From: a virus
IMG/VR virus record: IMGVR_UViG_3300042261_001312
Span: 186,001 to 250,000 of that record
DNA length: 64,000 bases
Reading direction: 5' to 3' (one strand)
Shown: positions 6,519 to 63,305 of the stretch, one piece after another
How positions within the stretch are numbered: the stretch's first letter is position 1
Layout: every line of letters begins with the position of its first letter
Notes under the pieces: model-generated
What the model saw: the letters and a program-made list of their open reading frames with translations, nothing else
The model's database searches: none
Told to the model about the DNA's origin: nothing
Made by a program: the position numbers and the translations under genes

Positions 6519-6527
6519 GTATTTATA
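6519..6527 (+). promoter_or_regulatory. Putative late promoter motif GTATTTATA
   Basis: Exact GTATTTATA in the gap after the polymerase gene; 15 nt separate it from the ATG at 6543. One of 22 sites that share this motif. Confidence 0.65.
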
Positions 6528-6542
6528 TAGAAATATGCTGTT

Positions 6543-7160
6543 ATGAGAATAAATAAGAAAGAATTGTTTGAAATAATTAATGCCAATGGGGAATTGATTG
6601 GTAATGATGGTATTCCAACAAATGGTGCAGATTTGGAATCACAAGCCAATAACACAACGGATTATAATGCAAAAATTGGTAATCAACCATTCAGATACGA
6701 TATGTTGGGTAGATTTGGATTCACACTTTTACCTTTCTTTGAAGGAGAAGAAAATCAAGATCAACTTGAACTTTTCAGTGATTTACAAGAATTGATGTTT
6801 GAGAGATATGTAGAAATTTTGAAGTTCTATTATAAAAATCCAAATAAACTTAAATCTGATTATAGGAAAATCGTTGATGGTGACAGCAATGTGAATAAAG
6901 AAGTAAATGCAGAATATGCAAAGAAAATAATCAAAATTGTTGAGAAACACTTTGAAAACGCATTTAAAGAACCTGAACAAATCGATGAATCTAAAGTTGC
7001 TGAAGATAAAGTAGTTGAAAAGAAAAATGAAGATGAAATCAGTAAAAAGGGTGAGGGAAATGAAGTCAGAGAAAAAAAACTTGAAAAGATTGCAGATTTG
7101 ATTCTTAAATTGGATAAGAAGGATGTAAATAAATTGAAAAATTTATTAGAGAGAAAGTAA
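6543..7160 (+). CDS. Hypothetical protein, 205 aa, charged C-terminal half
   Basis: I do not recognise a family. The N-terminal 120 residues look globular, with aromatic and acidic patches (around FEGEENQDQLELF). Residues 150-205 are a highly charged Lys/Glu stretch predicted to be helical or coiled-coil. Its stop overlaps the start of the Nudix gene at 7160 by one base (TAATG). A GTATTTATA motif precedes it, so it probably begins a late transcription unit. It could be a structural or scaffold-type head protein, but nothing in the sequence proves this. Confidence 0.75.
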   Translation: MRINKKELFEIINANGELIGNDGIPTNGADLESQANNTTDYNAKIGNQPFRYDMLGRFGFTLLPFFEGEENQDQLELFSDLQELMFERYVEILKFYYKNPNKLKSDYRKIVDGDSNVNKEVNAEYAKKIIKIVEKHFENAFKEPEQIDESKVAEDKVVEKKNEDEISKKGEGNEVREKKLEKIADLILKLDKKDVNKLKNLLERK

Positions 7161-7996
7161 TGGCTAATCAAGAATTGTACAATAAGACCTATTCTGTGCC
7201 CTCTAGTGTATTAAAATATATACATGCAACCCTAGTATCCAATCCAAGTGGTACTGGCGTTAAACGAGCCAAATTCGTGCTTAAAAACGGTGTATTAACT
7301 TATCAGGCATTGAAGAGATTGAAAAATTTCTTCGATACTTTTAATCCAGAAACTGGTGATAAAGTTCAATATGCACTTGCTGGTGGAACTTTGATGAAAG
7401 ATTTTATTGAAAAAACGTTAAGTACTGACAGAGATGCAATTAGAAGGTCTAAAGAAGTAAGACGTGATATGACGACAAATCCAAATTCTGAATTAAAGCC
7501 ATATCAGAATCCAAGACTAAATGAAGAAAGCGGTGTTGATTATTTGGTGAGAACAATTGATAGGGAAATACTTCAATCGATACTTAATGAAAATAAAGAT
7601 GAATTGAAGAAAAATGCAATTGCTGTTATTGTCAATAATGAGAATAAAATATTGTTATTAAAAAGAGCAGACGAGGAAGATACTTGGATGCCTAATAAGT
7701 GGGCATTAGTTGGTGGTGGAGTTGAAAAGGGCGAAACTCCTGAAAAGGCAGTTAAAAGAGAAATTCAGGAAGAAACTGGTTTGGATGTTAAGAAATTCGT
7801 AAATTCATTCACAATACAAAGGCACAAGAGCAGTATTGAACATGTGTTTGCATGTAGATATGATGGTGAACCAACTGATGTGGTTCTTGATCATGAAAAC
7901 ACAAATTATGGTTGGTTCGATGTTCAGGAAATGAAATTTTTAGATATTGTACCACATTTGATAGAATACATTACTTTGGCTTTCAAATCCTATTAA
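7160..7996 (+). CDS. Two-domain protein with C-terminal Nudix hydrolase
   Basis: Residues about 150-278 form a Nudix domain with a complete Nudix box: a GG, then GVEKGE, seven residues, REIQEETGL (around 190-212). This family hydrolyses nucleoside diphosphates linked to another moiety (dNTP cleanup, NAD or ADP-ribose, RNA caps). The N-terminal ~120 residues are a separate domain I do not recognise; it contains SNPSGTGVKRAKF and a Gly-rich AGGTLMKDF. The two parts are joined by a linker with two L-N-E tripeptides (120-122 and 142-144), which resemble prohead-protease cut sites. A homing-type endonuclease gene follows after 1 nt. Confidence 0.85.
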   Translation: MANQELYNKTYSVPSSVLKYIHATLVSNPSGTGVKRAKFVLKNGVLTYQALKRLKNFFDTFNPETGDKVQYALAGGTLMKDFIEKTLSTDRDAIRRSKEVRRDMTTNPNSELKPYQNPRLNEESGVDYLVRTIDREILQSILNENKDELKKNAIAVIVNNENKILLLKRADEEDTWMPNKWALVGGGVEKGETPEKAVKREIQEETGLDVKKFVNSFTIQRHKSSIEHVFACRYDGEPTDVVLDHENTNYGWFDVQEMKFLDIVPHLIEYITLAFKSY

Positions 7997-7997
7997 A

Positions 7998-8921
7998 ATG
8001 AAAACAAGTAATAGAGAAGAATTTATTTATAAAGCCGTTCAATTACATAGTAATAGTTATGATTATTCTGAAGTTATTTATTTAAATAATAAGACTAGTG
8101 TAAGAATAAAATGTAATAAATGTGGTAAAATTTTTAATCAAACTCCTAATAATCATTTACGCAATCACGGATGTCCATATTGTTTTTCATTAAATATAGG
8201 TAATTTGAAAAGACATTCAAATAATATTTTTATTGAAAGAGCGAATGCCATACATGGTTATAAATATAATTATGATGATATATGTTATGTAAATGCTAAT
8301 ACAAAAATTAATATTATTTGTGAAAAACATGGAACGTTTAAGCAAACTCCTTCAATGCACTTAAAAGGTAGAGGTTGTCATATTTGTGGATTAGAGAAGA
8401 GATGTGATAGTAAGAAAAAAACATTAAACAGTTTTATTGAAGATGCTAAGATTATGCATGATGAAAAATATGATTATTCTTTGGTGCAATATGAAAAGTC
8501 AAACAAAAAAATATTAATTATTTGTAAATTACATGGTGTTTTTACACAAACCCCTAATAATCATTTGAATGGTGCTGGATGTCCCAAGTGTTGTGAATCA
8601 AAAGGTGAAATGAAAATTAGAAATTATTTTGAAAAAAATAATATAAGATATTTGAGACAAATGACATTTAATAATTGTAAAAATAAAAAGTCGTTATTTT
8701 TTGATTTTTATTTGCCTGATTATGATGTGTTGATAGAATATGATGGAGAATTACATTATAAAAGTGTTGAATATTTTGGTGGTGATGTGGGATTGCAATA
8801 TAGAAAATATAATGATAACATAAAAAATATGTATGTTATAGAAAATAATTTAAACTTAGTGAGAATTAGTTATATTGATTATGAAAATATTGATAACATA
8901 TTAAATCAATTATTACAATAA
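7998..8921 (+). CDS. Free-standing homing-type endonuclease: treble-clef repeats plus Vsr-like nuclease
   Basis: The 307-aa protein has three N-terminal repeats of about 60 aa with the pattern F-I-x-x-A-x-x-x-H-x-x-x-Y-x-Y, then C-x2-H/C-G and H-L-x-x-x-G-C-x-x-C (DUF723-like treble clefs that should bind zinc and DNA). The C-terminus carries a Vsr/EDxHD-like nuclease core, FDFYLPDYDVLIEYDGELHY, where the catalytic Asp, Glu and His cluster. It is a paralogue of the genes at 23650 and 26402. It starts 1 nt after the Nudix stop, as expected for an endonuclease gene that invaded a gene junction without breaking its neighbours. No introns are seen around it. Confidence 0.85.
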   Translation: MKTSNREEFIYKAVQLHSNSYDYSEVIYLNNKTSVRIKCNKCGKIFNQTPNNHLRNHGCPYCFSLNIGNLKRHSNNIFIERANAIHGYKYNYDDICYVNANTKINIICEKHGTFKQTPSMHLKGRGCHICGLEKRCDSKKKTLNSFIEDAKIMHDEKYDYSLVQYEKSNKKILIICKLHGVFTQTPNNHLNGAGCPKCCESKGEMKIRNYFEKNNIRYLRQMTFNNCKNKKSLFFDFYLPDYDVLIEYDGELHYKSVEYFGGDVGLQYRKYNDNIKNMYVIENNLNLVRISYIDYENIDNILNQLLQ

Positions 8922-8924
8922 TTT

Positions 8925-8933
8925 GTATTTATA
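8925..8933 (+). promoter_or_regulatory. Putative late promoter motif GTATTTATA
   Basis: Exact motif 4 nt past the endonuclease stop and 32 nt upstream of the ATG at 8966. Confidence 0.6.
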
Positions 8934-10080: not shown

Positions 10081-10089
10081 GTATTTATA
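10081..10089 (+). promoter_or_regulatory. Putative late promoter motif GTATTTATA
   Basis: Exact motif directly after the WYL-like gene; 22 nt separate it from the ATG at 10112. Confidence 0.62.
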
Positions 10090-10111: not shown

Positions 10112-10774
10112 ATGGCTAAAAATATAAATTTAAATAAACTCAGGGATGAAATTGAAACCCGCAAGGGAGAAAGAAACATGGTTTCATCCAAATTAGGTGA
10201 AACTGTTGGTGCTGGTCTTGCACCCAAAGATGTATTTTTAAATGGTTTGTTGGAATCGTTACATACTGGTAGAGAAACTGCATCAAGCAGTTTAATAAAA
10301 ACTGTTGACAATCAAGTTTCAATTAAAAAGGGTGAATCTGCTAAATTACAAATTAGCGAATCAGTACCTACTCAACAAAGAACTCCGATTCCAGTACCAA
10401 GAGAAAATTACGATATGTCTCCTGAGAGAGATGAGCAATTATATCGTGACTTGGAAGTCAGGAGAAAACAAACATTGGCTGAATCCATTGAAGGATATTC
10501 AAAAATTCCGCAAGTAGGTGCACCAATGAGCAATGGAGTACCACAACAAATTAATGAAGCATATTTAACCGAAAATGTAAAGAAAATTGTAAATAATTAC
10601 TTGATCGAAAATTTCGGTCCTGTCGTTGAGGAAGCAATAAAAAGTACAATTCTTGAAATGTACGCAGTGGAAAGAATTAAAGAAGTTCTGCATGAAAACA
10701 AAGATTTAGTGAAAACAATTGTCTATGAGACGATTCGAGAACTTCAATCAAAAAACAAGAATAAAGCGCAATAA
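10112..10774 (+). CDS. Hypothetical protein, 220 aa
   Basis: No family recognised. The first ~130 residues are hydrophilic and Pro/Ser/Gln-rich, probably extended. The last ~85 residues (from INEAYLTENVKK) are predicted to be helical and end in a Lys/Asn-rich tail. The junction between the two parts carries I-N-E and L-T-E tripeptides. It has its own late motif upstream, and its stop codon lies inside the 5' arm of a strong terminator, so it is a one-gene transcription unit. The disordered-plus-helical layout would suit a head-core or packaged protein; this is inference. Confidence 0.75.
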   Translation: MAKNINLNKLRDEIETRKGERNMVSSKLGETVGAGLAPKDVFLNGLLESLHTGRETASSSLIKTVDNQVSIKKGESAKLQISESVPTQQRTPIPVPRENYDMSPERDEQLYRDLEVRRKQTLAESIEGYSKIPQVGAPMSNGVPQQINEAYLTENVKKIVNNYLIENFGPVVEEAIKSTILEMYAVERIKEVLHENKDLVKTIVYETIRELQSKNKNKAQ

Positions 10775-10792
10775 GAATTGCGCTTTTTTTTT
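10763..10792 (+). terminator. Rho-independent terminator
   Basis: Perfect 10-bp stem (AAAGCGCAAT at 10763-10772, ATTGCGCTTT at 10777-10786) with a 4-nt loop and a run of T to 10792. The stop codon of the preceding gene overlaps the stem. Confidence 0.92.
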
Positions 10793-10804
10793 ATAGTTAA
10801 TTCT

Positions 10805-10813
10805 GTATTTATG
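10805..10813 (+). promoter_or_regulatory. Putative late promoter motif GTATTTATG
   Basis: One mismatch at the last base. It lies between the terminator and the kinase-fold gene, 23 nt before the ATG at 10837. Confidence 0.62.
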
Positions 10814-10836
10814 GATATACTATAATTATTTAAAAC

Positions 10837-13800
10837 ATGACATACAACGAATTCTTACAGAATTTCTTACCTGAATTTTCTAAAATCAAATCATATAAAG
10901 GCAGAATTGAATATGCTAATCAGTATCTAACCAAACTAGGTAGTGGTAGTGGTAGAGTTGTTTATGATATTGACGGAACAAAAGTTTTTAAAGTCGCAAA
11001 AAATACTAAAGGAGTTGCACAAAATGAGGTTGAATCAAGTATTGGTAGAGATTATTATACTCAAGATTTGGTCACTGAAGTATTTGAATCTGCAGATGAT
11101 GATAGTTGGATTATTGCAGAAAAAGCAAAAAAAGTTTCGGAAAAAAGAATCATTCAACTAACTGGTATTCCAAATTTAAGTGAATTATATTATTATCTCA
11201 GAAATAACGAACTTCGTAATAAAGGAAGTAGAGGTATACATCATCAAGATGATGATATTGTTGAGCAGTTAAATGAAAATGAATTTGCAGCAAATATTCT
11301 CGATTTTATTATAAATTATAATCAAAGTGCTGGTGATTTGGGTAGATATAGTAGTTATGGTGAAGTAGTGCGTAATGGGCAATCTCAAATAGTAATAACT
11401 GATTATGGATTAAATGATGAAGTATATCAGACACACTACACACGAAAAGATAAGCAACCATATCGCATGTATGAATTATTCAATCATGCTGACGGAAATG
11501 ATGATGATCTCTCATACGTTGATGATGGTGATATTATAAGACATGGCATGTGGGCATTAATTCCTTATGGTGTTGGGGATGGTACTGATACAATTAATGA
11601 AGATTTTATTAACTTTGTTTCGAATAGAGATAATTATCCATCAAGACCATTGACGGTAATGCCATATTTAATGGAAGTTTTCCATGAATGTGTAAATAAT
11701 CTCGAAGAAGTATTAAATAAGGTTGAGGATAAGAAGAAGTTTTATATTAATTTATTAAAACTTCAAGAATATTTGATTGAACAGAAATTTTATGATAGAG
11801 AACCATTAAAATTATATGAAGGTGAAATGATGGACGAAAAATACGATGTTAATACTGCTGAAGCAATAGCAAAAAAAATTGCTGAAAAGTACGGATTTAA
11901 GAAATTAGAATATATTGGTGGTGGTAATTTTGGAGTTGCTTATGATGTTGGTGAAAATAAAGTATTGAAAATAACCAGCGATAGAACAGAAGCAAATGAA
12001 AATCTTAAATTAAAAGGCAAACCATTGCAATATATTGCAGAGCCATATGAAGTGATAAGAATTTCTCCAAAGACAACTCAAATACCTGAAACATATGCAA
12101 TTATATTGGAGAAATTACAAACAGATGTGAATGAATTTAGAAGGCTTATCGATAGAATGGAATTTGCCTTCAAGAGAATTATGGGTGTTGACTACTATGA
12201 TGTAATTTTACATTACACCGACCAAGAAGATTTTAGTGTGGATGAGGATAAGGTGAATGCATATATGAAAAGAAATCCACAAGATGCTGAATTCTTTTAT
12301 GGAATTATAAGGATTGCAGAAGAGTTGAAGAAATATGGTATTGAAAGCGTTGATTATATCAATCCCAGCAATCTTGGATATAAACAAAATGGTGCATTGG
12401 CGTTTTTTGATGTTGGGTTTGGTAGCGAATCACCTTCAAGTGAGAAACCAAGAAATTTTGAAATTGATGAAGATGGAAGTGCTAAATTTTCACAAGTTGA
12501 TTCAATTGGTCGTGATGATTTTCCAACATATGACCAAAATGATACGTCACCATTAACTGATAATAATATTCCAACAACTACTGATGAAGATTTGGAATAT
12601 CGACATGCAGATGATGCGACACAAGACGAATACATAATTGATGAAGATATGGAATTTGTCGGTGGTAGCGAAATGACCGATGACACACATGAATTGGATG
12701 AACGTATTCTATCAGCAATGAAAGGTAGTAGTACGGTTGATGTTAAGAAGAAATGTAGATTAGGCGGTTTGGGAAGTACAAGTGTTGCTTGTAATCAAGG
12801 TGACATTAAAAATTTGAAGATCAGATCATTAAAGGAAGATACAATAAGGCATAATGAAGATGTTTGGGCATGGGTATCTCCTGATAATAGATTAATTCGT
12901 GTTCCTAAACTAAATCATAAAGGATATATAATGAATGTCTATAGGAATTTTAGTTGGGATTACGATCAAGTGTTTGATAAAGCAATTGAAGATGGATGGG
13001 TCAGAGTTATTTACGAATATTTTCCAAAACAATATAAGTCTTCGTTGTCATTAAATGGCTATGATAAAGAACGTGTTATTTCTGTTTTTAAAGAAATGTT
13101 TTATAATTTGGTTAAATATGGAAATAATAATGTATATTTGGAGTATGAAAATCCAAAGGGGTATGATTCATTTAACATGGGTACTGCTGATGGAAAAGAA
13201 AAGATGAGTTCGATAATTGGCGAAGAATATCTAAATGAAGACGTTGTTCCAAATAGACGAAAATTTTGGGCATGGGTATCTCCTAACAATGAATTTATTG
13301 AAATACCTAAAATGGGGCATGTCGAATATATTGAAGATAAATATCCAAATTCTGATGATGTATATGCAGATGCAATTAGAGATGGTTGGGTTAGTGCGAT
13401 GTATTCTCATTATAATGATGGAGAAGGTAGTGAATTGTCATTGAATGGAATTGATAAAAATAGAGTGAAAGATGTTCTTAAAAATGTTTTTGGAAATTTG
13501 GTAAAAGGTGGAAATCTTTCAATATATATGGACTATGAAGATGGTACAATGAGTGATATTATTCATACACAAAATATGGATGGAAAAATGAAATTATTTG
13601 ACTTTCTTCGTGAAAATCTTGATGAAACAATTGAAGCATCAGATGCGTATAGTGACGGAGATGCGTTGCAGTCAATGATTGATGGCAAGAAAGATGTTGG
13701 ATTTATTCATTTTAAAGGTCACAGGAATGCAGAGGTGGGTAATAATTTAAAAAAACTTGCAATTGAAAATGGTTTTAAATTTATTCCTGTGGAGCAAGCA

Positions 13801-14157: not shown

Positions 14158-14166
14158 GTATTTATA
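14158..14166 (+). promoter_or_regulatory. Putative late promoter motif GTATTTATA
   Basis: Exact motif 14 nt upstream of the LAGLIDADG endonuclease ATG at 14181. Confidence 0.62.
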
Positions 14167-14180: not shown

Positions 14181-15005
14181 ATGGGAAGACCAAGAATTTA
14201 TAGTTTAAATGAAAATTATTTTAATATTATTGATAGTAATGAAAAAGCATATATATTGGGATTTATTTATGCTGATGGTAGTGTATTTAGAAATTATTTG
14301 ACAATTGGATTATCAGATAAAGATGTTGAAATATTGGAACATATTAAAAAGTGTTTGGGATATGATGGAATTATTTATAAAAGATTTGATGCGAAAAAAA
14401 ATAAATCATATGTTATATTATCAGTAAGTTCGAAAAATATTGTAAAAACATTAATTGATTTGGGTGTTATTAATAATAAAACATATCTTTCAAAGGAATT
14501 CCCAACATACGAAAAAAAATACGAATGGGCGTTTTTGAGAGGATTTTTCGATGGAGACGGGTCAATATATTGCAATTTTCGTAATAATAATATTAAAACA
14601 ATTGAGTATACTGTATGTTTTTCTGGTAATTTATCTGTATTAAATCAGTTGAAAAAAATTTTATATGAATATAATATATCAAGTTCAAACATAAGACATA
14701 GACGTGAAAATGAAGAATCATGTATGTTGGAAATAAGGGGTAATAATAATATTGAAAAAATTTATGGTCTAATGTATGAAGATGATGGATTCTATTTAAA
14801 GAGAAAAAAAAATAAATTTAATGACTTTAATAATATGTTGACGACATTAACCAAAAGAAATTTATCTAATAAAATTATTGACGACATTCTTGAATATTAT
14901 AACATGAAAATAAAACAGTCTGAAATCGCAAACATTTTAAAAATACCCAAAAGTTCTGTGAGAACAGTAATTCAAAGATTAAGAAAAAATGGAAAAATTG
15001 TATGA
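14181..15005 (+). CDS. Free-standing LAGLIDADG homing endonuclease
   Basis: The 274-aa protein has two dodecapeptide motifs: AYILGFIYADGS (about residues 29-40) and AFLRGFFDGDGS (about 116-127). This is the single-chain, two-motif form that cuts DNA as a monomer, with the Asp residues at the motif ends as metal ligands. The C-terminal ~70 residues include a helix-turn-helix-like stretch (QSEIANILKIPKSSVRTVIQRL) that probably adds DNA contacts. The gene has its own late motif, and its 3' end overlaps the start of the tRNA nucleotidyltransferase gene by 17 nt, typical of an inserted mobile gene. Confidence 0.92.
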   Translation: MGRPRIYSLNENYFNIIDSNEKAYILGFIYADGSVFRNYLTIGLSDKDVEILEHIKKCLGYDGIIYKRFDAKKNKSYVILSVSSKNIVKTLIDLGVINNKTYLSKEFPTYEKKYEWAFLRGFFDGDGSIYCNFRNNNIKTIEYTVCFSGNLSVLNQLKKILYEYNISSSNIRHRRENEESCMLEIRGNNNIEKIYGLMYEDDGFYLKRKKNKFNDFNNMLTTLTKRNLSNKIIDDILEYYNMKIKQSEIANILKIPKSSVRTVIQRLRKNGKIV

Positions 15006-18069: not shown

Positions 18070-18078
18070 GTATTTATA
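18070..18078 (+). promoter_or_regulatory. Putative late promoter motif GTATTTATA
   Basis: Exact motif 14 nt upstream of the ATG at 18093. Confidence 0.62.
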
Positions 18079-23178: not shown

Positions 23179-23208
23179 AAAATCCCGATTAATAGTCGGG
23201 ATTTTTTT
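23179..23208 (+). terminator. Rho-independent terminator
   Basis: Stem AAAATCCCGA (23179-23188) with TCGGGATTTT (23196-23205), 7-nt loop and T-run to 23208. Confidence 0.92.
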
Positions 23209-23216: not shown

Positions 23217-23225
23217 GTATTTATA
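23217..23225 (+). promoter_or_regulatory. Putative late promoter motif GTATTTATA
   Basis: Exact motif between a terminator and the gp25-like baseplate gene, 15 nt before the ATG at 23241. It is the best-placed example of the motif driving a clear structural gene. Confidence 0.75.
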
Positions 23226-32532: not shown

Positions 32533-32554
32533 TTATTAATAACTCAAAATTAGG

Positions 32555-32590
32555 AAAAATCCCAATGCAACCCATTGGGATTTTTCTTTT
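32555..32590 (+). terminator. Rho-independent terminator
   Basis: A 13-bp perfect stem (32555-32567 with 32573-32585, core ATCCCAATG/CATTGGGAT), 5-nt loop and T-rich tail. It closes the first tail operon. Confidence 0.92.
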
Positions 32591-32594: not shown

Positions 32595-32603
32595 GTATTT
32601 ATA
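32595..32603 (+). promoter_or_regulatory. Putative late promoter motif GTATTTATA
   Basis: Exact motif immediately after a terminator, 16 nt before the GTG start at 32620. Confidence 0.72.
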
Positions 32604-37568: not shown

Positions 37569-37577
37569 GTATTTATG
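37569..37577 (+). promoter_or_regulatory. Putative late promoter motif GTATTTATG
   Basis: One mismatch at the last base, 16 nt before the GTG start at 37594. Confidence 0.62.
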
Positions 37578-40171: not shown

Positions 40172-40180
40172 GTATTTATT
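40172..40180 (+). promoter_or_regulatory. Putative late promoter motif GTATTTATT
   Basis: One mismatch at the last base, 17 nt before the ATG at 40198. The spacing is nearly the same as for fibre A. Confidence 0.62.
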
Positions 40181-42111: not shown

Positions 42112-42120
42112 GTATTTATA
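42112..42120 (+). promoter_or_regulatory. Putative late promoter motif GTATTTATA
   Basis: Exact motif 28 nt before the ATG of the first glycosyltransferase of the 42-45 kb cluster. Confidence 0.62.
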
Positions 42121-45238: not shown

Positions 45239-45247
45239 GTATTTATA
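45239..45247 (+). promoter_or_regulatory. Putative late promoter motif GTATTTATA
   Basis: Exact motif 13 nt before the ATG at 45261, near the minimal spacing seen in the window. Confidence 0.65.
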
Positions 45248-46060: not shown

Positions 46061-46069
46061 GTATTTATT
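46061..46069 (+). promoter_or_regulatory. Putative late promoter motif GTATTTATT
   Basis: One mismatch at the last base, 32 nt before the ATG at 46102. Confidence 0.55.
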
Positions 46070-47240: not shown

Positions 47241-47249
47241 GTATTTATT
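47241..47249 (+). promoter_or_regulatory. Putative late promoter motif GTATTTATT
   Basis: Follows a T-run without a hairpin (47231-47240) and lies 34 nt before the ATG at 47284. Confidence 0.5.
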
Positions 47250-49109: not shown

Positions 49110-49118
49110 GTATTTATT
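49110..49118 (+). promoter_or_regulatory. Putative late promoter motif GTATTTATT
   Basis: Lies 78 nt before the ATG at 49197, farther than any other example; a host-type promoter lies between it and the gene, so its use is doubtful. Confidence 0.4.
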
Positions 49119-49126: not shown

Positions 49127-49157
49127 TTGCATTTTCAACTAATTTGTTGTATGTTTG
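49127..49157 (+). promoter_or_regulatory. Host-type Bacteroidota promoter (TTG-N20-TATGTTTG)
   Basis: TTG at 49127-49129 and TATGTTTG at 49150-49157 fit the -33/-7 pattern TTG-N19-TAnnTTTG with a 20-nt spacer, 39 nt before the ATG at 49197. Confidence 0.62.
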
Positions 49158-51174: not shown

Positions 51175-51213
51175 AAATTGCTTCAAAACTATTTGTTTTG
51201 AAGCAATTTTTTT
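51175..51213 (+). terminator. Rho-independent terminator
   Basis: A 15-bp perfect stem (51175-51189 with 51195-51209, core TTGCTTCAAAAC), 5-nt loop and T-run to 51213. Confidence 0.92.
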
Positions 51214-51222
51214 ATATATTTG
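51193..51222 (+). promoter_or_regulatory. Host-type Bacteroidota promoter candidate (TTG-N19-TATATTTG)
   Basis: TTG 51193-51195 and TATATTTG 51215-51222 are spaced by exactly 19 nt, but the TTG overlaps the terminator loop and arm, so the match may be incidental. Confidence 0.45.
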
Positions 51223-51252
51223 TTGCATGGTTAAATAGTTGAAATAAAAATA

Positions 51253-51261
51253 GTATTTATA
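51253..51261 (+). promoter_or_regulatory. Putative late promoter motif GTATTTATA (upstream copy)
   Basis: First of two exact copies 31 nt apart before the RHH/GIY-YIG cassette. Confidence 0.5.
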
Positions 51262-51283
51262 CTACTTTTATTCGGTCATTTAA

Positions 51284-51292
51284 GTATTTATA
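51284..51292 (+). promoter_or_regulatory. Putative late promoter motif GTATTTATA (proximal copy)
   Basis: Second exact copy, 16 nt before the ATG at 51309. Confidence 0.6.
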
Positions 51293-51308
51293 TTAAAAAT
51301 ATGTTGTA

Positions 51309-51458
51309 ATGGGTAGGAAAAAAATTGATAATGGTAAAATGAAATGTAAAATATCGATAACAATTTTACCTGAAGTAAATAATAAACTTGAAACATTGAA
51401 AATTAATAAATCAAAATTAATTAATTCACTGCTTCAAGAATATTTAAAAAATTTTTAA
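51309..51458 (+). CDS. Very small ribbon-helix-helix protein, 49 aa
   Basis: Reads MGRKKIDNGKMKCKISITI, then LPEVNNKLETLKINKSKLINSLLQEYLKNF: a basic N-terminal arm, a strand and two helices of RHH type (Arc/MetJ-like). One base separates its stop from the ATG of the GIY-YIG gene. The gene is too short for usual gene finders, but it is backed by the double late motif 16 nt upstream and by the same pairing at 46102 and 59855. It probably controls or aids the adjacent endonuclease. Confidence 0.72.
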   Translation: MGRKKIDNGKMKCKISITILPEVNNKLETLKINKSKLINSLLQEYLKNF

Positions 51459-51459
51459 T

Positions 51460-52239
51460 ATGAAAATTAAATGGACTAAAGAGAAATGCGAAGAAGAAGC
51501 ATTAAAATATTCAGGTAGAAATGAATTTAATCTTGGTTCACGTTCTGCATATAATTCAGCACGTAAAAATGGATGGCTTGATGATATTTGTTCTCATATG
51601 AAAAAGGGTGGAAATAAATTATATCGATGTATATATGTTTATGAATTTTCTGATAATTGTGCATATATTGGTTTGTCATATAATTTAAATAAAAGAAGTG
51701 AAATACGTAAAACCCAACAAAACGATGCGGTGACTAGACATATTAATAAAACCAATTTAGTTCCTAAAATTAAACAATTGAGCGAATATGTCTATGTTGA
51801 CATTGCCGCTGAATTAGAAAATGATTGCATTGAAACATATAAAATACTTGGGTGGAATGTTTTGAATAAACATCGTGGTGGAAATATCGGTGCAAGTGAA
51901 ATTATTTGGACTAAAGAATTATGTCATGTTGAAGCATTAAAATTTAAATCAAGAAGTGAGTTTTATTATCGAAGTAATAAAATATATACTGCAGCACAAA
52001 GACAAGGTTGGTTAAATGATATTTGTAAACACATGAATAATAAAATTCATCATTGGACTATTGATGAAGTTAAAGCAGAAGCATTTAAATATAAATCTAG
52101 ATATGAATTTCAACTAAATAATAAAGCAGCGTATACGTGGGCAATTAGAAATAATTGCTTGAATGAAATTTGTACACATATGCAATCAATGATAGGGAGT
52201 AATCAATATGGGAAATATTCAAGGACTGGAATTTCATAG
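51460..52239 (+). CDS. GIY-YIG homing-type endonuclease with WTKE-repeat DNA-binding modules, 259 aa
   Basis: Modules in order: a WTKEKC-x-x-EALKY-type repeat (about residues 5-45), a GIY-YIG domain (YVYEFSDNCAYIGLSYNLNKR, with the Arg after YIG), then two further WTKE/WTID repeats, each ending in NGWL/NxCL-x-x-IC-x-HM. The repeats bear conserved Cys/His and Trp and resemble DNA-recognition tails of other homing enzymes. It is a close paralogue of the gene at 60025. Its 3' end overlaps the primase start by 32 nt, as if inserted just upstream of the primase. Confidence 0.87.
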   Translation: MKIKWTKEKCEEEALKYSGRNEFNLGSRSAYNSARKNGWLDDICSHMKKGGNKLYRCIYVYEFSDNCAYIGLSYNLNKRSEIRKTQQNDAVTRHINKTNLVPKIKQLSEYVYVDIAAELENDCIETYKILGWNVLNKHRGGNIGASEIIWTKELCHVEALKFKSRSEFYYRSNKIYTAAQRQGWLNDICKHMNNKIHHWTIDEVKAEAFKYKSRYEFQLNNKAAYTWAIRNNCLNEICTHMQSMIGSNQYGKYSRTGIS

Positions 52240-53281
52240 TATTATTCAAAATATTTTTGGCGATGTTAATGGTCTTAATGTATCTGAGCAATTGCAAGTA
52301 AATTGCCCACGTTGTCAGGAAAGAGATGGATTGCGACATCCTGATGGTAAATATAACCTTGAGATTAACACACGTAGAAGACTTTATCGTTGTTGGCGTT
52401 GTGATGAACCAAAGTTTAGTGGTTCATTGGGTAGATTAATCAGAATGTTAGGTTCGAATGCTGATTATGAGATTTATAAATCATATGCAGGAATTCTTAC
52501 TGATTATGAATATAGTGAAGATGAAAAAGAATATGTTCAAGTAAAATTACCAGAAGAAATGATTTTATTTTCACAAATGGAAGCAGGAAATTTACAACAT
52601 TTCGAAGCATATAATTATTTAGTGAATGAAAGAAAAATATCAAGGGATATTATTTTAAAATATCGGCTTGGTTTTTGTACTACTGGAAGATATGCAAATA
52701 GAATAATTATACCATCCTACGATATGAATGGGGAAGTTAATTATTTTGTTGCCAGAACTTATGACCCCAAGGAAAAAAAGAGAAAATATGATAATCCTAA
52801 ATCAGATAAAGATGTAATCATATTTAACGAAGGATTTATTAATTGGGATTCTACTGTATATTTAGTTGAAGGTGTGACTGATATGTTTTCACTTCCAAAT
52901 GCTATTCCAATGCTTGGAAAAACCATATCTTCCACGTTGTATATGAAATTGAAGAAAATGATGCCAGATGTCGTCATTTTGTTAGACCCTGACGCTTATA
53001 AAAATAGTATTGAATTGTTTTACAAATTGCAAACTATTTATGTTGGCTGTGAGGAAAAAGTTAAAATTGTCAAACTACCAACAACTGAAGATATTGATGA
53101 ACTTCGTAGAAATCAAGGTATTGAGGAAGTTATTAAGTCATTATATACTGCAAGAGGTTTGACAATAGATGATTACTTTATTAATAAGTTACGAAAACCC
53201 TATGAATATAAACGAGGAGGATTTGATTCTAGTTCCAAAGATTATGAATGGAAATCGGGAAGCACAAGAAGTTTTTTATAA
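52208..53281 (+). CDS. Toprim DNA primase (DnaG/T7-type), 357 aa
   Basis: An N-terminal zinc site has CPRC (about residues 32-35) and CWRC (about 58-61). The toprim motifs are VYLVEGVTDMF (Glu) and VILLDPDAYKN (DPD). This is the layout of small phage primases that make RNA primers at the fork. No helicase domain is fused. It overlaps the upstream endonuclease gene and the downstream sigma gene (80 nt). The start at 52208 is supported because the zinc site follows within the normal distance. Confidence 0.9.
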   Translation: MGNIQGLEFHSIIQNIFGDVNGLNVSEQLQVNCPRCQERDGLRHPDGKYNLEINTRRRLYRCWRCDEPKFSGSLGRLIRMLGSNADYEIYKSYAGILTDYEYSEDEKEYVQVKLPEEMILFSQMEAGNLQHFEAYNYLVNERKISRDIILKYRLGFCTTGRYANRIIIPSYDMNGEVNYFVARTYDPKEKKRKYDNPKSDKDVIIFNEGFINWDSTVYLVEGVTDMFSLPNAIPMLGKTISSTLYMKLKKMMPDVVILLDPDAYKNSIELFYKLQTIYVGCEEKVKIVKLPTTEDIDELRRNQGIEEVIKSLYTARGLTIDDYFINKLRKPYEYKRGGFDSSSKDYEWKSGSTRSFL

Positions 53282-53831
53282 AAAATACCAAAAAACAGTA
53301 AAAGATTATTTAAAACATAGTTTTCCAAAATATAGTGTCGATGATATTGATGATTGTGTGTCATCAATTTTAATTAAAGTGTTTGATAGTTTGCATTTAT
53401 ATGATTCAGAAAAATCAAGTGTTAAAACTTGGATTCTATCTATAGCAAAACATTATATGATTGATTTGAATAGAAAAAATTCAACTAAATTAACATCATT
53501 CGCAAACACTATAACTACGACAGATACCGCATTCACTGATTATCAAACCACTACAAGTGTATGTAATACTGCTTTTTTATCAAATGCTATAAGTAGTTAT
53601 CAAACGTTTACCACTTGCAGCACAGATTTTGAAAACTGTAGTTCAATTAAATATATTACCTCACAATTAACCCCACAAGAATATACTTTATTGGATATGA
53701 AGTATGTTCAAGGCTATAACTATAATGAAATTGGAAAAGAATTTCAATTAACAAGTAGCACTGTGAGTAATAAGATTAACTATATAAAAACAAAATTGAA
53801 GAAGAATATACAAGAAGAAATATATGATTAA
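53202..53831 (+). CDS. ECF-type sigma factor, 209 aa
   Basis: The ATG at 53202 gives MNINEEDLILVPKIMNGNREAQEVFYKKY, the start of sigma region 2; an earlier start is unnecessary. Region 2 continues with DIDDCVSSILIKVFDSLHLYD and SSVKTWILSIAKHYMIDLNRK (residues about 45-95). Region 4 is LTPQEYTLLDMKYVQGYNYNEIGKEFQLTSSTVSNKINYIKTKLKKN (in parts), with a clear HTH. A Thr/Ser/Asn-rich linker joins the two. The gene begins 80 nt inside the primase gene. It is a good candidate for the phage late sigma that reads GTATTTATA, like T4 gp55 for TATAAATA. Confidence 0.9.
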   Translation: MNINEEDLILVPKIMNGNREAQEVFYKKYQKTVKDYLKHSFPKYSVDDIDDCVSSILIKVFDSLHLYDSEKSSVKTWILSIAKHYMIDLNRKNSTKLTSFANTITTTDTAFTDYQTTTSVCNTAFLSNAISSYQTFTTCSTDFENCSSIKYITSQLTPQEYTLLDMKYVQGYNYNEIGKEFQLTSSTVSNKINYIKTKLKKNIQEEIYD

Positions 53832-54490: not shown

Positions 54491-54499
54491 GTATTTATA
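54491..54499 (+). promoter_or_regulatory. Putative late promoter motif GTATTTATA
   Basis: Exact motif 22 nt before the ATG at 54522. Confidence 0.62.
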
Positions 54500-54521
54500 A
54501 TTGTAAGTGATTTATGTTAGT

Positions 54522-56213
54522 ATGGAAAATTTAAAATCTTATTTTCTTGATGATAAAAATGGTGCACATAAAAGAGAATCATTTTTAATCAAATATCATT
54601 CAGACCTATTGAATGATATTTTAAATTATAAAATTAACCTAAATAAAAATTATCCGTTAATTCAAAAAATATATAATTATATTTTCGCTTTGAATGAAGT
54701 TCCAAAATGTTATTGCGGTAATGAAGTCAAATTTAATGAAACTATAAATAAAGGATATAGAAAATATTGTTCAACTAAATGCGGTAGAAATGATCCTTTA
54801 GTTAAAGATAAAATAAGAAAAACGAATTTTGAAAAATATGGTGTAGATGCTCCATTACAATCAAAATTAATACAAGATAAACAAAAAGAGACGAACATAA
54901 AAAAATATGGTGTTGAAAATCCACAAAAAAATAGTATAATTAAAAATAAAACCAAACAGACAAACATAAAAAAATATGGTGTCGAGAATCCATTCCAATC
55001 AGAAATAATTAAAGATAAAATAAAACAAACAAATTTAAAAAAATATAATGTTGAAAACGTATCTAAACTGACGGCAATTAAAGAAAAAAAGAAAGAAACA
55101 TCAAGAATTAATTATGGTCAGGATTATTATACACAAACTAATGAATATAAAAAAAGACAAGCAAATACTTTTCTAAAAAAAATAAATAATTTAGATATTT
55201 CTGTTTTTGATTTAGATAATTTAATTTTTTTAGTGAAAAATCATTGTGAAAAGCATGAAGAATTTTTAATTAAAAAAGATACACTATATAATAGGTATTT
55301 TGTTTCTAAGCAAAATAATATTTGTACTGAATGTTTACCACCAGAAAGAACGCATGATTCAAATATTTTCAATGAAATAAAAAAATTTTTATTGAAATAT
55401 AATATAAATTTCATTGAAAATGATAGAAATGTTGTTAAGCCATATGAAATTGATTTATATTTGCCTGACCATAATTTTGGAATTGAAATAAATGGTTCTT
55501 ATTATCATTCCGATTTTTATAAAACCCCCAATTATCATCAAAATAAAACATTATTGGCTAGAAAACATAATATTTTTATATTTCATCTTTGGGATTTTGA
55601 TTATTATAATAACAAAAACTTGATTTTATCAATGCTGTTAAGTAAATTATCTTTAATTGAAAATAAAATATATGCAAGAAATACGAAAATTCGTGAAATT
55701 GAAGATAACGTCTGTAAAGAATTTTTAAATAAAAACCACATTCAAAAATGGTGCGTTTCACGATATCGTTATGGGTTGTATTGCGATAATAAACTAATTA
55801 GTGTCATGACATTTGGAAAATTGCGAAATAATTTAAATAGTGCTGGGAAAGAAGGTCAATTTGAATTATTACGTTTTTGTTCAGAACAAAATATGACCAT
55901 TGTTGGTGGTGCACAAAAATTATTAAACTTTTTTGAAAAAAACCATAATGTTACGAAAATTATATCATATTCAAATAATGACATCAGTAATGGTAATTTA
56001 TATAAAATTTTGGGATTTGATTTAATTAAAGAAACTAAACCAACATATTGGTGGATTAAACATATGGTAAAATACAATAGATATAACTTCAGGAAGGATA
56101 GATTAATTCAAGACGGTTTTGATGCCAATAAAACTGAAGATGAAATTATGAAAGAACGTGGATATTTAAAAGTATATAATTCAGGGAATCAACTTTACGA
56201 AAAACTCTTGTAA
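54522..56213 (+). CDS. Free-standing homing-type endonuclease with KYGVENP repeats and Vsr-like domain, 563 aa
   Basis: I use the ATG at 54522; a GTG five codons upstream is possible. A Cys-rich N-terminal segment (KCYCGNEVKF, YCSTKCGRND) is followed by four or five repeats of N-x-x-KYGVENP-x-x-S/N plus charged residues, each of ~25 aa, as in DUF7487-type phage endonucleases. A Vsr/EDxHD-like nuclease follows (YEIDLYLPDHNFGIEINGSYYH, then IFHLWDFD). The last ~150 residues look like another domain, with YRYGLYCDNKLISVMTFGKLR. Probably a homing enzyme acting near this locus; its target is not evident. Confidence 0.8.
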   Translation: MENLKSYFLDDKNGAHKRESFLIKYHSDLLNDILNYKINLNKNYPLIQKIYNYIFALNEVPKCYCGNEVKFNETINKGYRKYCSTKCGRNDPLVKDKIRKTNFEKYGVDAPLQSKLIQDKQKETNIKKYGVENPQKNSIIKNKTKQTNIKKYGVENPFQSEIIKDKIKQTNLKKYNVENVSKLTAIKEKKKETSRINYGQDYYTQTNEYKKRQANTFLKKINNLDISVFDLDNLIFLVKNHCEKHEEFLIKKDTLYNRYFVSKQNNICTECLPPERTHDSNIFNEIKKFLLKYNINFIENDRNVVKPYEIDLYLPDHNFGIEINGSYYHSDFYKTPNYHQNKTLLARKHNIFIFHLWDFDYYNNKNLILSMLLSKLSLIENKIYARNTKIREIEDNVCKEFLNKNHIQKWCVSRYRYGLYCDNKLISVMTFGKLRNNLNSAGKEGQFELLRFCSEQNMTIVGGAQKLLNFFEKNHNVTKIISYSNNDISNGNLYKILGFDLIKETKPTYWWIKHMVKYNRYNFRKDRLIQDGFDANKTEDEIMKERGYLKVYNSGNQLYEKLL

Positions 56214-56238
56214 TTTTAATTGGTTTTTCATATATTTG
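56208..56238 (+). promoter_or_regulatory. Host-type Bacteroidota promoter of the SbcCD fusion (TTG-N20-TATATTTG)
   Basis: TTG 56208-56210 and TATATTTG 56231-56238 are 20 nt apart, and the box ends 19 nt before the ATG at 56258. The TTG lies in the end of the upstream gene. Confidence 0.65.
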
Positions 56239-56257: not shown

Positions 56258-59200
56258 ATGAATATTAATAAGATATGCCATTTGGCAGACATCCACATCC
56301 GAAAAACACCTACTCGTAATGAAGAATACCAATTGGTATTCAATAATTTGTTAAAATCATTGAGTAAAAATAAACCAGATAGAATTGTAATTGTTGGCGA
56401 TTTGGTTCATGACTACCTTGATTTACAGGGGGAACAATTAATATTGGCTTCAGATTTTTTAAATGAATTGGCTGAGATTGCACCTGTTCGAATCACAAGA
56501 GGAAATCACGATTGTAGAAAAAAAACCCTGAATAGAGTTGATAGTGTTAAAGCAATTGTCGAAACACTACACAATCCAAAAGTTATTTATTATGATACAT
56601 CAGATGTTTATTATGATGATAATGTTGCTTGGATGGTTTGGCATCATGGAGACTCAAAAGGGAATCCTTGGAAGACGAAAGAAGGTAAAATTTATGAAAA
56701 ATTAAGAACAACTTCTCAACAGTATATTTCAATTGATTTATTTCATGATCCAATTAGTGGCTATTTGACTACTGGTGGTCTTGAAATGAAAAGCAAGTCA
56801 TATTACCAAGCATCTGATTTTAAGGGTGATTTGTCATTCTTTGGGGATATTCATAGAATGCAATACATGAATAAGGCAAAAACCAAAGCATATTGTGGGT
56901 CACTTATTGCACAAGACGTTAGTGAAGGTGATGATAACTTTCATGGATATTTATTGTGGGACATAACAACAAAAACGGCAGAAGAAATACCAATTGATAA
57001 TGATTGGTCTTATAAAAACGTGAGAATTACACCATACACTGACTTCGATGACTTGGATTTTGAAATTGGAAATCCGACAAAGCATATGAAGGTTAGGTTT
57101 CTCTGGGGTACATTACCTCAAACAAGAACAAAAGATAATGAAAGAAAATTAGCGATTTATCTCAAATCAAAATATGATAATGTAACAATTTCACATAAGA
57201 ATCAATTCATTGAAAGTGAGAAAATCGATGTTAATGAGAACATCACAATTCAAAACATTGAAGACAAAGCGGTTCAACATGAAATTTTCAAAGAATACCT
57301 AACCAAAATAGGTTCAAGTGAAGAAGTAATTAATGATGTTATTGCACTTGACGAAGAAATTTTAAATGAAATTGAATTTGATGATATTGCTAGTATTGAA
57401 TGGAATGTAGTTAAATTTGGAGGTAAGAATTTCATGTCATATGAAACACTTGATATTGATTGGCGTGATAATGACGGATTGTATCAAATAACTGGAATGA
57501 ATACTGCAGGAAAGACCACAATAATGAAGTTATTATCATATATTTTGTTCAGCAAGACATTGGAAACCGAAACAAGAGTTAAATATGGTGATATGCGTTT
57601 TGTTAACAACCGAAATGGTGCAGACTATTGTGAAGGTTATCTTGTATTAGAAGCAGGTGGTGAATATTACGGTATTAAGAAAAGAACTGAAATTGAAAAA
57701 AATAGGTCTGGTGAAATAAAAGGTGCGCCTACTACATTGAATTATTATCTACTTTCCAATCCAGACGAAGCAATGGATGAAAAAACATCGTTGGATGTAT
57801 TGGTTGAAGACCGTAAGTATAAAACGCAGAAGAAAATTGAATCTATTATTGGGTCATATGATAATTTCATGCGTATTGTAATGACGACATCTGATACGCT
57901 AAACAGAATATTATCAAACGATATGGCTGTTTTCATCGATTCAATTCTCTTTGATAGCGGATGTGATATATTCGATAAAAAACTCGAAGGATTGAAAGCA
58001 TATCAAAAACGAGTTAATGAGAAATCAAGGGTGAGTTGTAATGTTGAATTCACCACGACTGAAAATGCTACATTAAAACAAGAAATCCGTGTTCTCAAAG
58101 GTGAAATTACTGAAATTGAAACAACAAAGTTACCAGACATTCAAATAAGAATTTCCAAAGGCAGAAAATATGTTGAAGATTTAACGAAGAAACTCTTTAA
58201 AATTGATGCCGAAATTTATAATTTGGATATTGATGCCACAAAAGGATTGATTGAACGACATAATGGTATTATTGATGATTTTAAGGCACGTAAGAGCGTT
58301 TTAGAGACAAGCATTCTTGCTTTGAGGGAAACGTATGACGAAGAGAAATTAAATGCTCTAATCGCAAAAAAAGACACTCACAAGACAAATGAGTACTCAA
58401 TGAAGATGAAGATTAAAGAGCATGAACAAACCAAAAGAAATCATGAACATTCAATCGAAATATTAAATGGTGACATTTTTAGATTAAAAAAACAAGGCAC
58501 TGAATATAAGGAAGAAATTATCAAATTAAAAAACAGCAAGACTTGTCCTACTTGTGGTCAGTTATTAACTGCAGATCATAGAAAACATATTGACGATAAA
58601 ATAAAAGAAATCGAAGGTCAAATGTTTCCAATTGCAGACCAAATAAAGGACATTCAAAATGTAAAAATAAAAGAACAACAAGATATTATTGATAGTACTG
58701 TTAAGGAAATCGATAAAATTAAAAAGGATATTGATGATAAGTCATTGGAAATGGAAGGCGTTCTTACCGAAATAGGCGTTCTTACAAACGACAAGAATGA
58801 TGTGGATAGACGAAAGGAATTGATGATTGAGTATGACCAAATCCCAACAAAAATCCAAAACGAAGAATTGAAAATCAGTATACATCAACAAAAAATTGAT
58901 AATCACGACAATAGTCTGAAGCAAATCGAAGAGAATCAAAGGATTGAAAAAGGTATTACTGCCGCTAAATTAAAATTGAAAGAACTTGAAGATGAAGAGA
59001 GCGATGAAAAAGAAAATGTCTACATCAAGAAAACAGGTGTTGCTGAAAAAGAATTGAAAATTAAGAATAATGAAATTCTTATTGCCGAATTCAAAATACA
59101 GGAGCATCGTGATATGGTTATTAGTCTTTATAAGCAATGTGTACATAGGGATGGGATTCCAAGACAAATGTTGAGCAATTATATTTTACCGAATATCAAC

Positions 59201-59590
59201 ATAACTTTGGAAAATATCTTATCGGTTTCACCATTCAAGGTTTGGTTAGACCCTGTTGATTTAAGACCAAAATTGGTGTATAACGACAGACCTCAAGCAA
59301 TTGTTGATTGTATAAGTGCATCGGGAAAAGAAAGAACTTTTTCAAGTGTTGTGTTAAAATTCGCATTGAATCAGATTAACGTAAAGGCAAAACCTTCAAT
59401 CTTCCTGTTGGACGAAGTTATGGGTAAATTAAGTGAAGAAAGCATTGAAGAGTTCATTGAAATTCTTCAAATGATTAAAGCAAATATGAAAAAAGTACTG
59501 GTCATTGAGCATAATCACGAAATCAATCCAGACTATTTATTAAACGTACAATTGAATGATGATGGAATATCATCAGTAACAATGGAATAA
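56258..59590 (+). CDS. SbcD-SbcC (gp47-gp46, Mre11-Rad50) fusion protein, 1110 aa
   Basis: Residues ~1-385 are an SbcD/Mre11-type metallophosphoesterase: LADIHIRK, GDLVHD, TRGNHD (near 83) and GDIHRM. Residues ~385-1110 are an SbcC/Rad50-type ATPase: Walker A GMNTAGKTT (near 412), long coiled coils with a zinc hook CPTC (near 763), the signature SASGKERTFSS and Walker B IFLLDEV (near 1050). In T4 these are two separate genes, 47 and 46, acting in end resection and recombination-dependent replication. Here one chain carries both enzymes. It is led by a host-type promoter and followed by a 59-aa gene. Confidence 0.93.
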   Translation: MNINKICHLADIHIRKTPTRNEEYQLVFNNLLKSLSKNKPDRIVIVGDLVHDYLDLQGEQLILASDFLNELAEIAPVRITRGNHDCRKKTLNRVDSVKAIVETLHNPKVIYYDTSDVYYDDNVAWMVWHHGDSKGNPWKTKEGKIYEKLRTTSQQYISIDLFHDPISGYLTTGGLEMKSKSYYQASDFKGDLSFFGDIHRMQYMNKAKTKAYCGSLIAQDVSEGDDNFHGYLLWDITTKTAEEIPIDNDWSYKNVRITPYTDFDDLDFEIGNPTKHMKVRFLWGTLPQTRTKDNERKLAIYLKSKYDNVTISHKNQFIESEKIDVNENITIQNIEDKAVQHEIFKEYLTKIGSSEEVINDVIALDEEILNEIEFDDIASIEWNVVKFGGKNFMSYETLDIDWRDNDGLYQITGMNTAGKTTIMKLLSYILFSKTLETETRVKYGDMRFVNNRNGADYCEGYLVLEAGGEYYGIKKRTEIEKNRSGEIKGAPTTLNYYLLSNPDEAMDEKTSLDVLVEDRKYKTQKKIESIIGSYDNFMRIVMTTSDTLNRILSNDMAVFIDSILFDSGCDIFDKKLEGLKAYQKRVNEKSRVSCNVEFTTTENATLKQEIRVLKGEITEIETTKLPDIQIRISKGRKYVEDLTKKLFKIDAEIYNLDIDATKGLIERHNGIIDDFKARKSVLETSILALRETYDEEKLNALIAKKDTHKTNEYSMKMKIKEHEQTKRNHEHSIEILNGDIFRLKKQGTEYKEEIIKLKNSKTCPTCGQLLTADHRKHIDDKIKEIEGQMFPIADQIKDIQNVKIKEQQDIIDSTVKEIDKIKKDIDDKSLEMEGVLTEIGVLTNDKNDVDRRKELMIEYDQIPTKIQNEELKISIHQQKIDNHDNSLKQIEENQRIEKGITAAKLKLKELEDEESDEKENVYIKKTGVAEKELKIKNNEILIAEFKIQEHRDMVISLYKQCVHRDGIPRQMLSNYILPNINITLENILSVSPFKVWLDPVDLRPKLVYNDRPQAIVDCISASGKERTFSSVVLKFALNQINVKAKPSIFLLDEVMGKLSEESIEEFIEILQMIKANMKKVLVIEHNHEINPDYLLNVQLNDDGISSVTME

Positions 59591-59832: not shown

Positions 59833-59841
59833 GTATTTATG
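59833..59841 (+). promoter_or_regulatory. Putative late promoter motif GTATTTATG
   Basis: One mismatch at the last base, 13 nt before the ATG at 59855. Confidence 0.6.
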
Positions 59842-61850: not shown

Positions 61851-61857
61851 ATTAATA

Positions 61858-61866
61858 GTATTTATA
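61858..61866 (+). promoter_or_regulatory. Putative late promoter motif GTATTTATA
   Basis: Exact motif 14 nt before the ATG at 61881. Confidence 0.65.
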
Positions 61867-61880: not shown

Positions 61881-62399
61881 ATGAGTAATATCAATAAAAA
61901 AAGTACGCCAGACCAAATGAGAGTATTTCTACGTAGAATGCGTGGAAAAGATGTCATTGTCAATGAAGAAGTAATAACCAAAAAATATATGGAAGTGCGT
62001 GATATGCTTAAAATTACACGCAAATTAAATGAAGATGTCAGTGCGGAGGATGCTGAAGATAATGAATTAAAAAAATCACCAAATAAAGTAACTATTTTTG
62101 ATCAAAAAATTGAAGAAGATAAATTCTTGAATATTTTCAAAGATATGGAGAGTGATGTAAATGTTAAATTCCTTGAATTAGAAGTAACTGATAATCTCGT
62201 ATTTTGGGGAGGAACAATTGATGGTATTATTCAATTTACATATGCAGTAACACCGTATGAAGATAAGAATAATGTATTATTTAATTATTTAGAGGACTTT
62301 ACACCAGATAATCCACAAAATACGGAAATTGTGAAAAGAGTTGAAGATTATTATAATACATTCGCAAAATATTGGCAAAATAATATAATTCAAAAATAA
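61881..62399 (+). CDS. Hypothetical protein, 172 aa
   Basis: The first ~50 residues are basic and helical (MRVFLRRMRGKDVIVNEEVI), followed by KLNEDVSAEDAEDNE with an L-N-E at 49-51, an acidic linker and a C-terminal ~100-aa alpha/beta domain (NVKFLELEVTDNLVFWGGTIDGIIQF). No family recognised. Layout and late motif match the possible packaged-protein group at 7-19 kb. It is directly followed (1 nt) by the two-TM protein. Confidence 0.7.
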   Translation: MSNINKKSTPDQMRVFLRRMRGKDVIVNEEVITKKYMEVRDMLKITRKLNEDVSAEDAEDNELKKSPNKVTIFDQKIEEDKFLNIFKDMESDVNVKFLELEVTDNLVFWGGTIDGIIQFTYAVTPYEDKNNVLFNYLEDFTPDNPQNTEIVKRVEDYYNTFAKYWQNNIIQK

Positions 62400-62400
62400 T

Positions 62401-63195
62401 ATGGCAAACTTTAATGTGAATCTAAATTTAAGTACTATAATTCTTATAGGTGTTATAGCATTTTTATTATTTGGTGGTAGCATCAAATTATATCAAAATA
62501 AGGTTGATAACCTTAAAGATAAACTTGAGACCGAAATTAAACTAAAAGATGCACTGATGGATAGCATCAGGTATCATAAAAATAAGTATAATGAATTGGT
62601 AGCGGAAAAACTTACCATTCAGGAAACTATTAAAAATCTAGAAAAAATCAACGGTCAACTCACTGCTTCACAGAAAGAATTAATGAGAAGGGTTATTGAA
62701 CTAAATGATAAAAATGCAGTAATTGCTGCAGCGTTAGTTCAGAATCAAATAATTATAGATTCATTGATACATCAAGGTCAGACGACAATAGATACGACAA
62801 AAAAGACAATTAATTTCAATGATAACTATAAGGAAGGTAAAAAGGAATTTTCGTATAGTTTTACAATTGGTAAAGTATTGCCTGCATATATGAACGAAAA
62901 ACCAACATTGCGTATTGATTCACTATATTTTCCAAATAAACAATTTATTTCATTCCAGTGGAAAAAGGTGAAAGGAAAAAACTATCCAATATCTTTCAGT
63001 GTTTCAAATTCAAACGATTTTTTCAAAACTGTTAATCTTGATAGTTATGCAATTCCCGCATTGAAAAAAGACGAAATTGATCCAAATAAATGGCAAAAAA
63101 TTGGAAATTTTTTCAGAAAAAATGGTCAGACTTTAATGTATATTGGTATTGGTGGTGCAGTTGGTGTAGGTACTTATATAATAATGACGAAATAA
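62401..63195 (+). CDS. Membrane-anchored coiled-coil protein, spanin-like candidate, 264 aa
   Basis: An N-terminal transmembrane helix (TIILIGVIAFLLFGG, about residues 12-27), a long coiled coil (30-120), a beta-rich domain (140-225) and a short C-terminal hydrophobic segment (GQTLMYIGIGGAVGVGTYIIM). The inner-membrane anchor plus periplasmic coiled coil fits an i-spanin or unimolecular spanin, and the lysin-like gene lies just upstream. It resembles DUF6808-type proteins of Bacteroides phages. A terminator follows. The spanin role is inferred. Confidence 0.68.
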   Translation: MANFNVNLNLSTIILIGVIAFLLFGGSIKLYQNKVDNLKDKLETEIKLKDALMDSIRYHKNKYNELVAEKLTIQETIKNLEKINGQLTASQKELMRRVIELNDKNAVIAAALVQNQIIIDSLIHQGQTTIDTTKKTINFNDNYKEGKKEFSYSFTIGKVLPAYMNEKPTLRIDSLYFPNKQFISFQWKKVKGKNYPISFSVSNSNDFFKTVNLDSYAIPALKKDEIDPNKWQKIGNFFRKNGQTLMYIGIGGAVGVGTYIIMTK

Positions 63196-63229
63196 TATAC
63201 TCACTTAGATGGGGACACTTATATTCAAC

Positions 63230-63270
63230 AAAGAACGCATGTTATATTTAATATGCGTTCTTTTCTTTTT
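63230..63270 (+). terminator. Rho-independent terminator
   Basis: An 11-bp stem (AAAGAACGCAT at 63230-63240 with ATGCGTTCTTT at 63253-63263), 12-nt loop and T-rich tail, after the spanin-like gene. Confidence 0.85.
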
Positions 63271-63296
63271 ATGATCAATTTTTTATGCTATGTGAA

Positions 63297-63305
63297 GTAT
63301 TTATA
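63297..63305 (+). promoter_or_regulatory. Putative late promoter motif GTATTTATA
   Basis: Exact motif between a terminator and the ATG at 63325 (19 nt). Confidence 0.65.

Follow-up and report, generated by a model that had tools for sequence, protein, structure and literature searches.

What is the function of a short word, GTATTTATA, that recurs in front of genes on one strand of a giant phage genome, and which protein reads it? The window analysed here is a stretch of 64,000 nucleotides, bases 186001-250000 of a 327,676-bp virus contig (IMG/VR record IMGVR_UViG_3300042261_001312), and positions are those of the window unless the contig is named. The whole contig has 31% GC (69% AT) and approximately 411 ORFs, as given by simple, uncurated longest-ORF calls. 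Its gene content is T4-like both on the replication and repair side (family B DNA polymerase, SbcCD, Dda helicase, rIIA and a UvsX-like recombinase) and on the virion side (baseplate wedges, tail sheath, tube, portal and terminase), and a search of the contig for RNA polymerase beta' found none. SbcD and SbcC are fused in a single ORF of 1110 aa (56258-59590), which is of similar length in relatives. We infer that the host belongs to the Bacteroidota, because the host-type promoters described below match the consensus reported for that phylum (PMC7366714), Shine-Dalgarno sites are not enriched, the nearest DNA polymerases include those of Salinibacter phages, and a related contig has been binned in a Bacteroidota genome. 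The contig carries ~39 tRNA genes in all. One of these, outside the window on the - strand (contig 33976-34047; L010:13976-14047), has the anticodon CTA, was called tRNA-Pyl by ARAGORN and is a possible amber suppressor, although TAG remains in use as a stop codon.

Exact copies of GTATTTATA number 16 on the + strand of the window and none on the - strand, against an expectation of 2.29 and a maximum of 6 in 100 shuffles. The form GTATTTAT occurs 24 times on the + strand, where 20 copies are intergenic, and three times on the - strand, always within coding DNA. The intergenic + strand DNA of the window holds 22 copies within one mismatch of the motif, the same number of sites as in the original prediction; exact copies at 15933 and 31506 and a GTATTTATG copy at 36065 lie within ORFs and are not to be counted as sites. 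In the whole contig, 48 of the 61 exact copies fall, in the right orientation, in intergenic DNA, which makes up 8.5% of the contig (binomial p ~1e-39), and 38 lie no more than 60 nt before a same-strand ORF start, compared with five in the reverse-complement orientation. The motif is therefore not equally dense in coding DNA or on the opposite strand, a result that favours a promoter. A logo of 85 intergenic sites reads GTATTTAT-a-N2-AAA, and 171 sites in four relatives yield the same logo; we refer to this class, GTATTTATA-N2-AAA, as c3. The logos contain no -35 box, as had been anticipated, but just a weak preference for A/T 14-15 nt upstream of the motif, where G and C are almost excluded. 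One-mismatch variants were hardly enriched unless the change was at the last base, and thus the core of the motif is strict. The spacing to the start codon, described beforehand as fixed, proved to be a preference: the mode is 13-16 nt, but only 62% of 506 sites in ten genomes lie within 10-20 nt, and the distance ranges between roughly 10 and 60 nt.

In the window, + strand c3 sites stand 15 nt before ORF 6543 (6519-6527; motif carried by 9/9 orthologues) and before ORFs 8966 (8925-8933; 7/9), 10112 (10081-10089; 9/9), 18093 (18070-18078; 7/9), 45261 (45239-45247; 5/9) and 61881 (61858-61866; 8/9). The baseplate wedge operon that begins with ORF 23241 (23217-23225) and the 1458-aa ORF 32620 (32595-32603) are each preceded by a site found in 9/9 orthologues, and ORF 10837 by the variant GTATTTATG (10805-10813; 4/6). 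Further sites are an exact copy before ORF 42149 (42112-42120), GTATTTATG before ORF 37594 (37569-37577), GTATTTATT before ORFs 40198 (40172-40180) and 47284 (47241-47249), a copy before ORF 63325 (63297-63305), and two intergenic variants, GTATTTATT at 46061-46069 and GTATTTATG at 59833-59841. Homing or HNH endonuclease genes occupy 7998-8921, 14181-15005 and 54507-56213, the third encoding a homing endonuclease, and the last two each have a c3 promoter of their own (14158-14166 and 54491-54499). The expected placement of sites right after terminators held throughout: every + strand intrinsic terminator of the window with at least 10 pairs, five in all, is followed by a motif. At 10763-10786, 23179-23205, 32552-32588 and 63230-63263 this is c3, the second arrangement being retained in relatives, and the fifth terminator lies at 51175-51209.

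In each of ten related genomes, the motif or its core ranks first or close to first among the words found upstream of genes, and does so in a single orientation. Orthologues of c3 genes carry the motif in 248 of 331 cases (75%), compared with 55 of 977 (6%) for the orthologues of other genes (p ~3e-136), at a protein identity among the compared orthologues of ~59%. Upstream alignments revealed that the motif is retained beside terminators despite changed stems, and c3 does not change among phages with a GC content of 25-35%. Genes behind c3 include those for terminase, portal, tail sheath, tube, and baseplate hub and wedge. The enrichment, the orientation and the late genes downstream support the proposal of a late-type, strand-specific promoter, and GTATTTATA is very probably the switch for late (virion) genes in these giant phages, a large and uncultured family that infects Bacteroidota.

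We identified three promoter classes in this phage, of which the first two, like the sigma gene within the window, were absent from the earlier reading. Class c1 is of the host type, TTG-N19/20-TATATTTG, i.e. TTG-N19/20-TAT(A/G)TTTG, and matches the Bacteroidota primary promoter, which consists of a -33 TTTG and a -7 TAnnTTTG (PMC7366714). Its sites precede the two sigma genes as well as SbcCD and the exonuclease gene. In the window, the primase-sigma operon has TTTG-N19-TATATTTG at 51192-51222, the SbcCD fusion gene at 56258 has the -7 box TATATTTG at 56231-56238, and exonuclease ORF 49197 has the -7 box TATGTTTG at 49150-49157, with a c3 variant shortly upstream of this promoter (49110-49118). 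The absence of c3 before SbcCD was thus borne out, a host-type promoter taking its place, and so was its absence from the start of the polymerase operon, for which a search for c1, c2 or c3 sites found none. Class c2, the trail of which began with a k-mer search upstream of motif-free genes, is of the ECF type, TGTAAC-N17-CGTATAA, and is found mostly towards the ends of the contig, before genes including rIIA and the Dda-helicase operon. Its spacer is 17 in 50/52 sites of the present phage (contig 266-327 kb and 1-60 kb) and mostly 16 in relatives. A c2 box stands directly before a tRNA-Arg gene and therefore c2 acts in transcription. Together, c1 and c2 genes include those for replication and repair as well as rIIA and the Dda-helicase operon. 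The gene sets of the three classes hardly overlap, and the orthologues of pure-c2 genes never carry c3. Outside the window, at contig 149811-149839, a c1 and a c3 site overlap in front of the gene for a 409-aa protein, which lies upstream of a UvsX-like gene; this overlap is retained in four relatives.

Two ECF-like sigma genes are present in the contig, one in the window (53202-53831, + strand, ATG at 53202) and one outside it (contig 10693-11481, - strand). The former shares its operon with the DNA primase gene (52208-53281). An insert (51223-52207) with a pair of c3 sites (51253-51261 and 51284-51292) and a 259-aa ORF lies between the primase gene and its conserved host-type promoter; relatives have the primase ATG ~4-5 nt after that promoter, and a nearly leaderless primase mRNA is therefore predicted. 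The window sigma scores above the cut-offs for PF04542 (40.4 bits; cut-off 24), PF04545 (27.7; 24.1) and TIGR02937 (73.9; 42.9), and consists of just sigma regions 2 and 4, in about 200 aa, as in the ECF family. Its structural model matched the folds of ECF sigmas, among them sigmaE region 2 in complex with its -10. These fold comparisons, for a full-length model of modest confidence (pTM 0.43), support a two-domain ECF sigma with a disordered linker. Of the 11 relatives searched first, seven have an orthologue and the remaining four are short contigs. Orthologues also occur in 50 related viral loci, all with intergenic c3 nearby; in most of these loci a c1 promoter is conserved about 1040 nt upstream of the sigma gene. 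Each of five near-complete relatives has two ECF-like sigmas above cut-off, equal to the number of non-host promoter classes. A viral-contig search for the second sigma with patterns from close relatives gave nothing.

The pairing of sigmas with motifs can be approached by exclusion and through a single evolutionary change. In the relative G021, the c2 -35 has changed from TGTAAC to GAAAC and the region-4 recognition helix of the second sigma has changed as well, whereas the helix of the window-type sigma and c3 are unchanged. Because the c2 -35 and this helix changed together, we assigned c2 to the second sigma, and because c2 is thereby taken, c3 to the window sigma, although the second sigma of G021 could instead be an unrelated replacement. 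The window sigma is thus the most likely candidate reader, and GTATTTATA is probably read by this small phage-encoded factor from the same window.

Our best explanation as a whole, to which we give a probability of roughly 0.7, is that c3 is a late promoter read by the window sigma, in a cascade leading from c1 through this sigma to the late genes, with the second sigma acting on c2. In these T4-like jumbo phages of Bacteroidota, c3 would be a -10-type element without a -35 box. The cascade is suggested by promoter anatomy: the RNA polymerase of the host, carrying its primary sigma, would read c1 and express the primase-sigma operon and other replication genes, after which the window sigma would bind the host core polymerase and its region 2 would read GTATTTATA, turning on the virion genes. 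The second phage sigma would read the ECF-type c2. Judging from the register, transcription would begin within the conserved A tract, some 3-5 nt beyond GTATTTATA, leaving leaders of roughly 10-13 nt at most c3 sites.

It is unlikely, but worth weighing, that c3 is a late promoter read by a factor that escaped detection, such as a very divergent gp55-like protein with a clamp, and that c2 or some other element is the target of the window sigma. Region 4 of the window sigma is strongly conserved, as would suit a -35 reader; this is unexpected for the -35-less c3, unless region 4 serves only to grip the flap of the polymerase or a partner that has escaped notice. In addition, c2 occurs in partial relatives where the window-type sigma alone was found. 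However, the contigs of those first relatives do not cover the region of the second sigma, and the near-complete relatives have both sigmas; following this coverage analysis, we dropped the missing second sigma as counter-evidence. The change in G021 also ties c2 to the other sigma. As for a gp55-like protein, an HMM built from 8 gp55 sequences matched a single ORF, of 105 aa, in the relative G012 (G012:149333-149650), which resembles the T4 gp55 core (E 9e-5) but is missing from the other genomes. Neither phrog_234 nor phrog_12791 (gp55) had a match in the contig at E<=10, nor did phrog_223 (gp45-type sliding clamp) at E<=1, although a divergent clamp is possible. A 93-aa phmmer match to gp55 was rejected, since it was not sigma-like on inspection.

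We consider it very unlikely that a host sigma factor, whether primary or ECF, reads c3. The word TATTTATA does share part of the host -7 box TAnnTTTG, and hosts of the Bacteroidota phylum have many ECF sigmas (PMC7366714). Nevertheless, c3 lacks the -33 TTTG, and it is the virion genes that use c3, while the orthologues of c1-only genes almost never do (1 of about 40). The invariance of c3 among phages that differ in GC is also what would be expected of a phage-encoded reader.

Still less credible is an RNA-level role for the motif, in which it would signal translation starts or processing. Such a role would fit the position near start codons and the lack of Shine-Dalgarno sites, which, together with short leaders, had been foreseen: 16/411 genes of the contig have one, compared with 18 in shuffled DNA. 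However, the motif comes after terminators and is rare before operon-internal genes (11/223, compared with 75/188 genes preceded by 30 nt or more of gap), and we rejected a translation signal on this basis. The wide range of spacing and the nearly separate gene sets of the promoter classes also argue against it. Chance copies, which the 69% AT of the genome might produce, are effectively excluded by the shuffles, the opposite strand, coding DNA and the conservation in orthologues.

The preferred reading, a late promoter read by the window sigma, can be compared with several known systems. Like ECF sigma factors, the window sigma has only regions 2 and 4 and exceeds the TIGR02937 cut-off, and the c3 box starts with GTA, as in the sigmaE region 2 complex. 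Unlike ECF promoters, c3 has no AAC-type -35 at a fixed spacing, a feature that c2 of the same phages does have. The Bacteroidota primary promoter is matched by c1, whereas c3 has neither its -33 nor its -7 box. According to the available sections of a review of Group 2 jumbo phages (PMC7824862), these have a family B DNA polymerase and phage sigma factors and no RNA polymerase of their own, as do the present phages, which by contrast are known from metagenomes alone; those sections name no late promoter motif for the group. The full text of the open-licence literature contained no relevant phage-promoter paper for GTATTTATA or TATTTATA.

The T4 late promoter is a short -10-only box served by gp55, gp33 and gp45, with sigma-like functions split between gp55 and gp33 (PMC2988020). 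The original prediction regarded the present motif as the T4 late -10 read backwards, and this part was not supported. In sense orientation, TATAAATA lies no more than 60 nt before a same-strand start in 8/113 copies in the contig, and nine relatives have 3-20 such copies per genome; it is not concentrated before genes. Moreover, no gp55 or gp45 was found in the contig, and our motif starts with GTA, as the -10 boxes of ECF sigma factors do. The likeness is most likely a coincidence, and the T4 late-box reading was rejected. The two systems nevertheless share a short -10-only box before late virion genes, an AT-rich start region without -35 conservation, and, as proposed here, a phage sigma that works with the RNA polymerase of the host, none of phage origin having been found. 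They differ in the box, GTATTTATA here and TATAAATA in T4, and in the apparent lack of gp55 and a T4-type gp45, the candidate sigma having regions 2 and 4 in one chain. That these phages combine T4-like late transcription from a -10-only box by a single two-domain sigma with a three-class cascade of one host and two phage sigmas is, in our estimation, evenly balanced. If the preferred reading is correct, c3 would serve as a late-gene marker for annotation, and the sequence would directly yield an expression map (early, replication and late) for the uncultured jumbo phages of this large family. The review of T4 asks why a fused late sigma does not exist or has not been found (PMC2988020); the window sigma would be a natural counterpart of such a protein, and a single small protein and a 9-bp box would suffice to put the question to the test.
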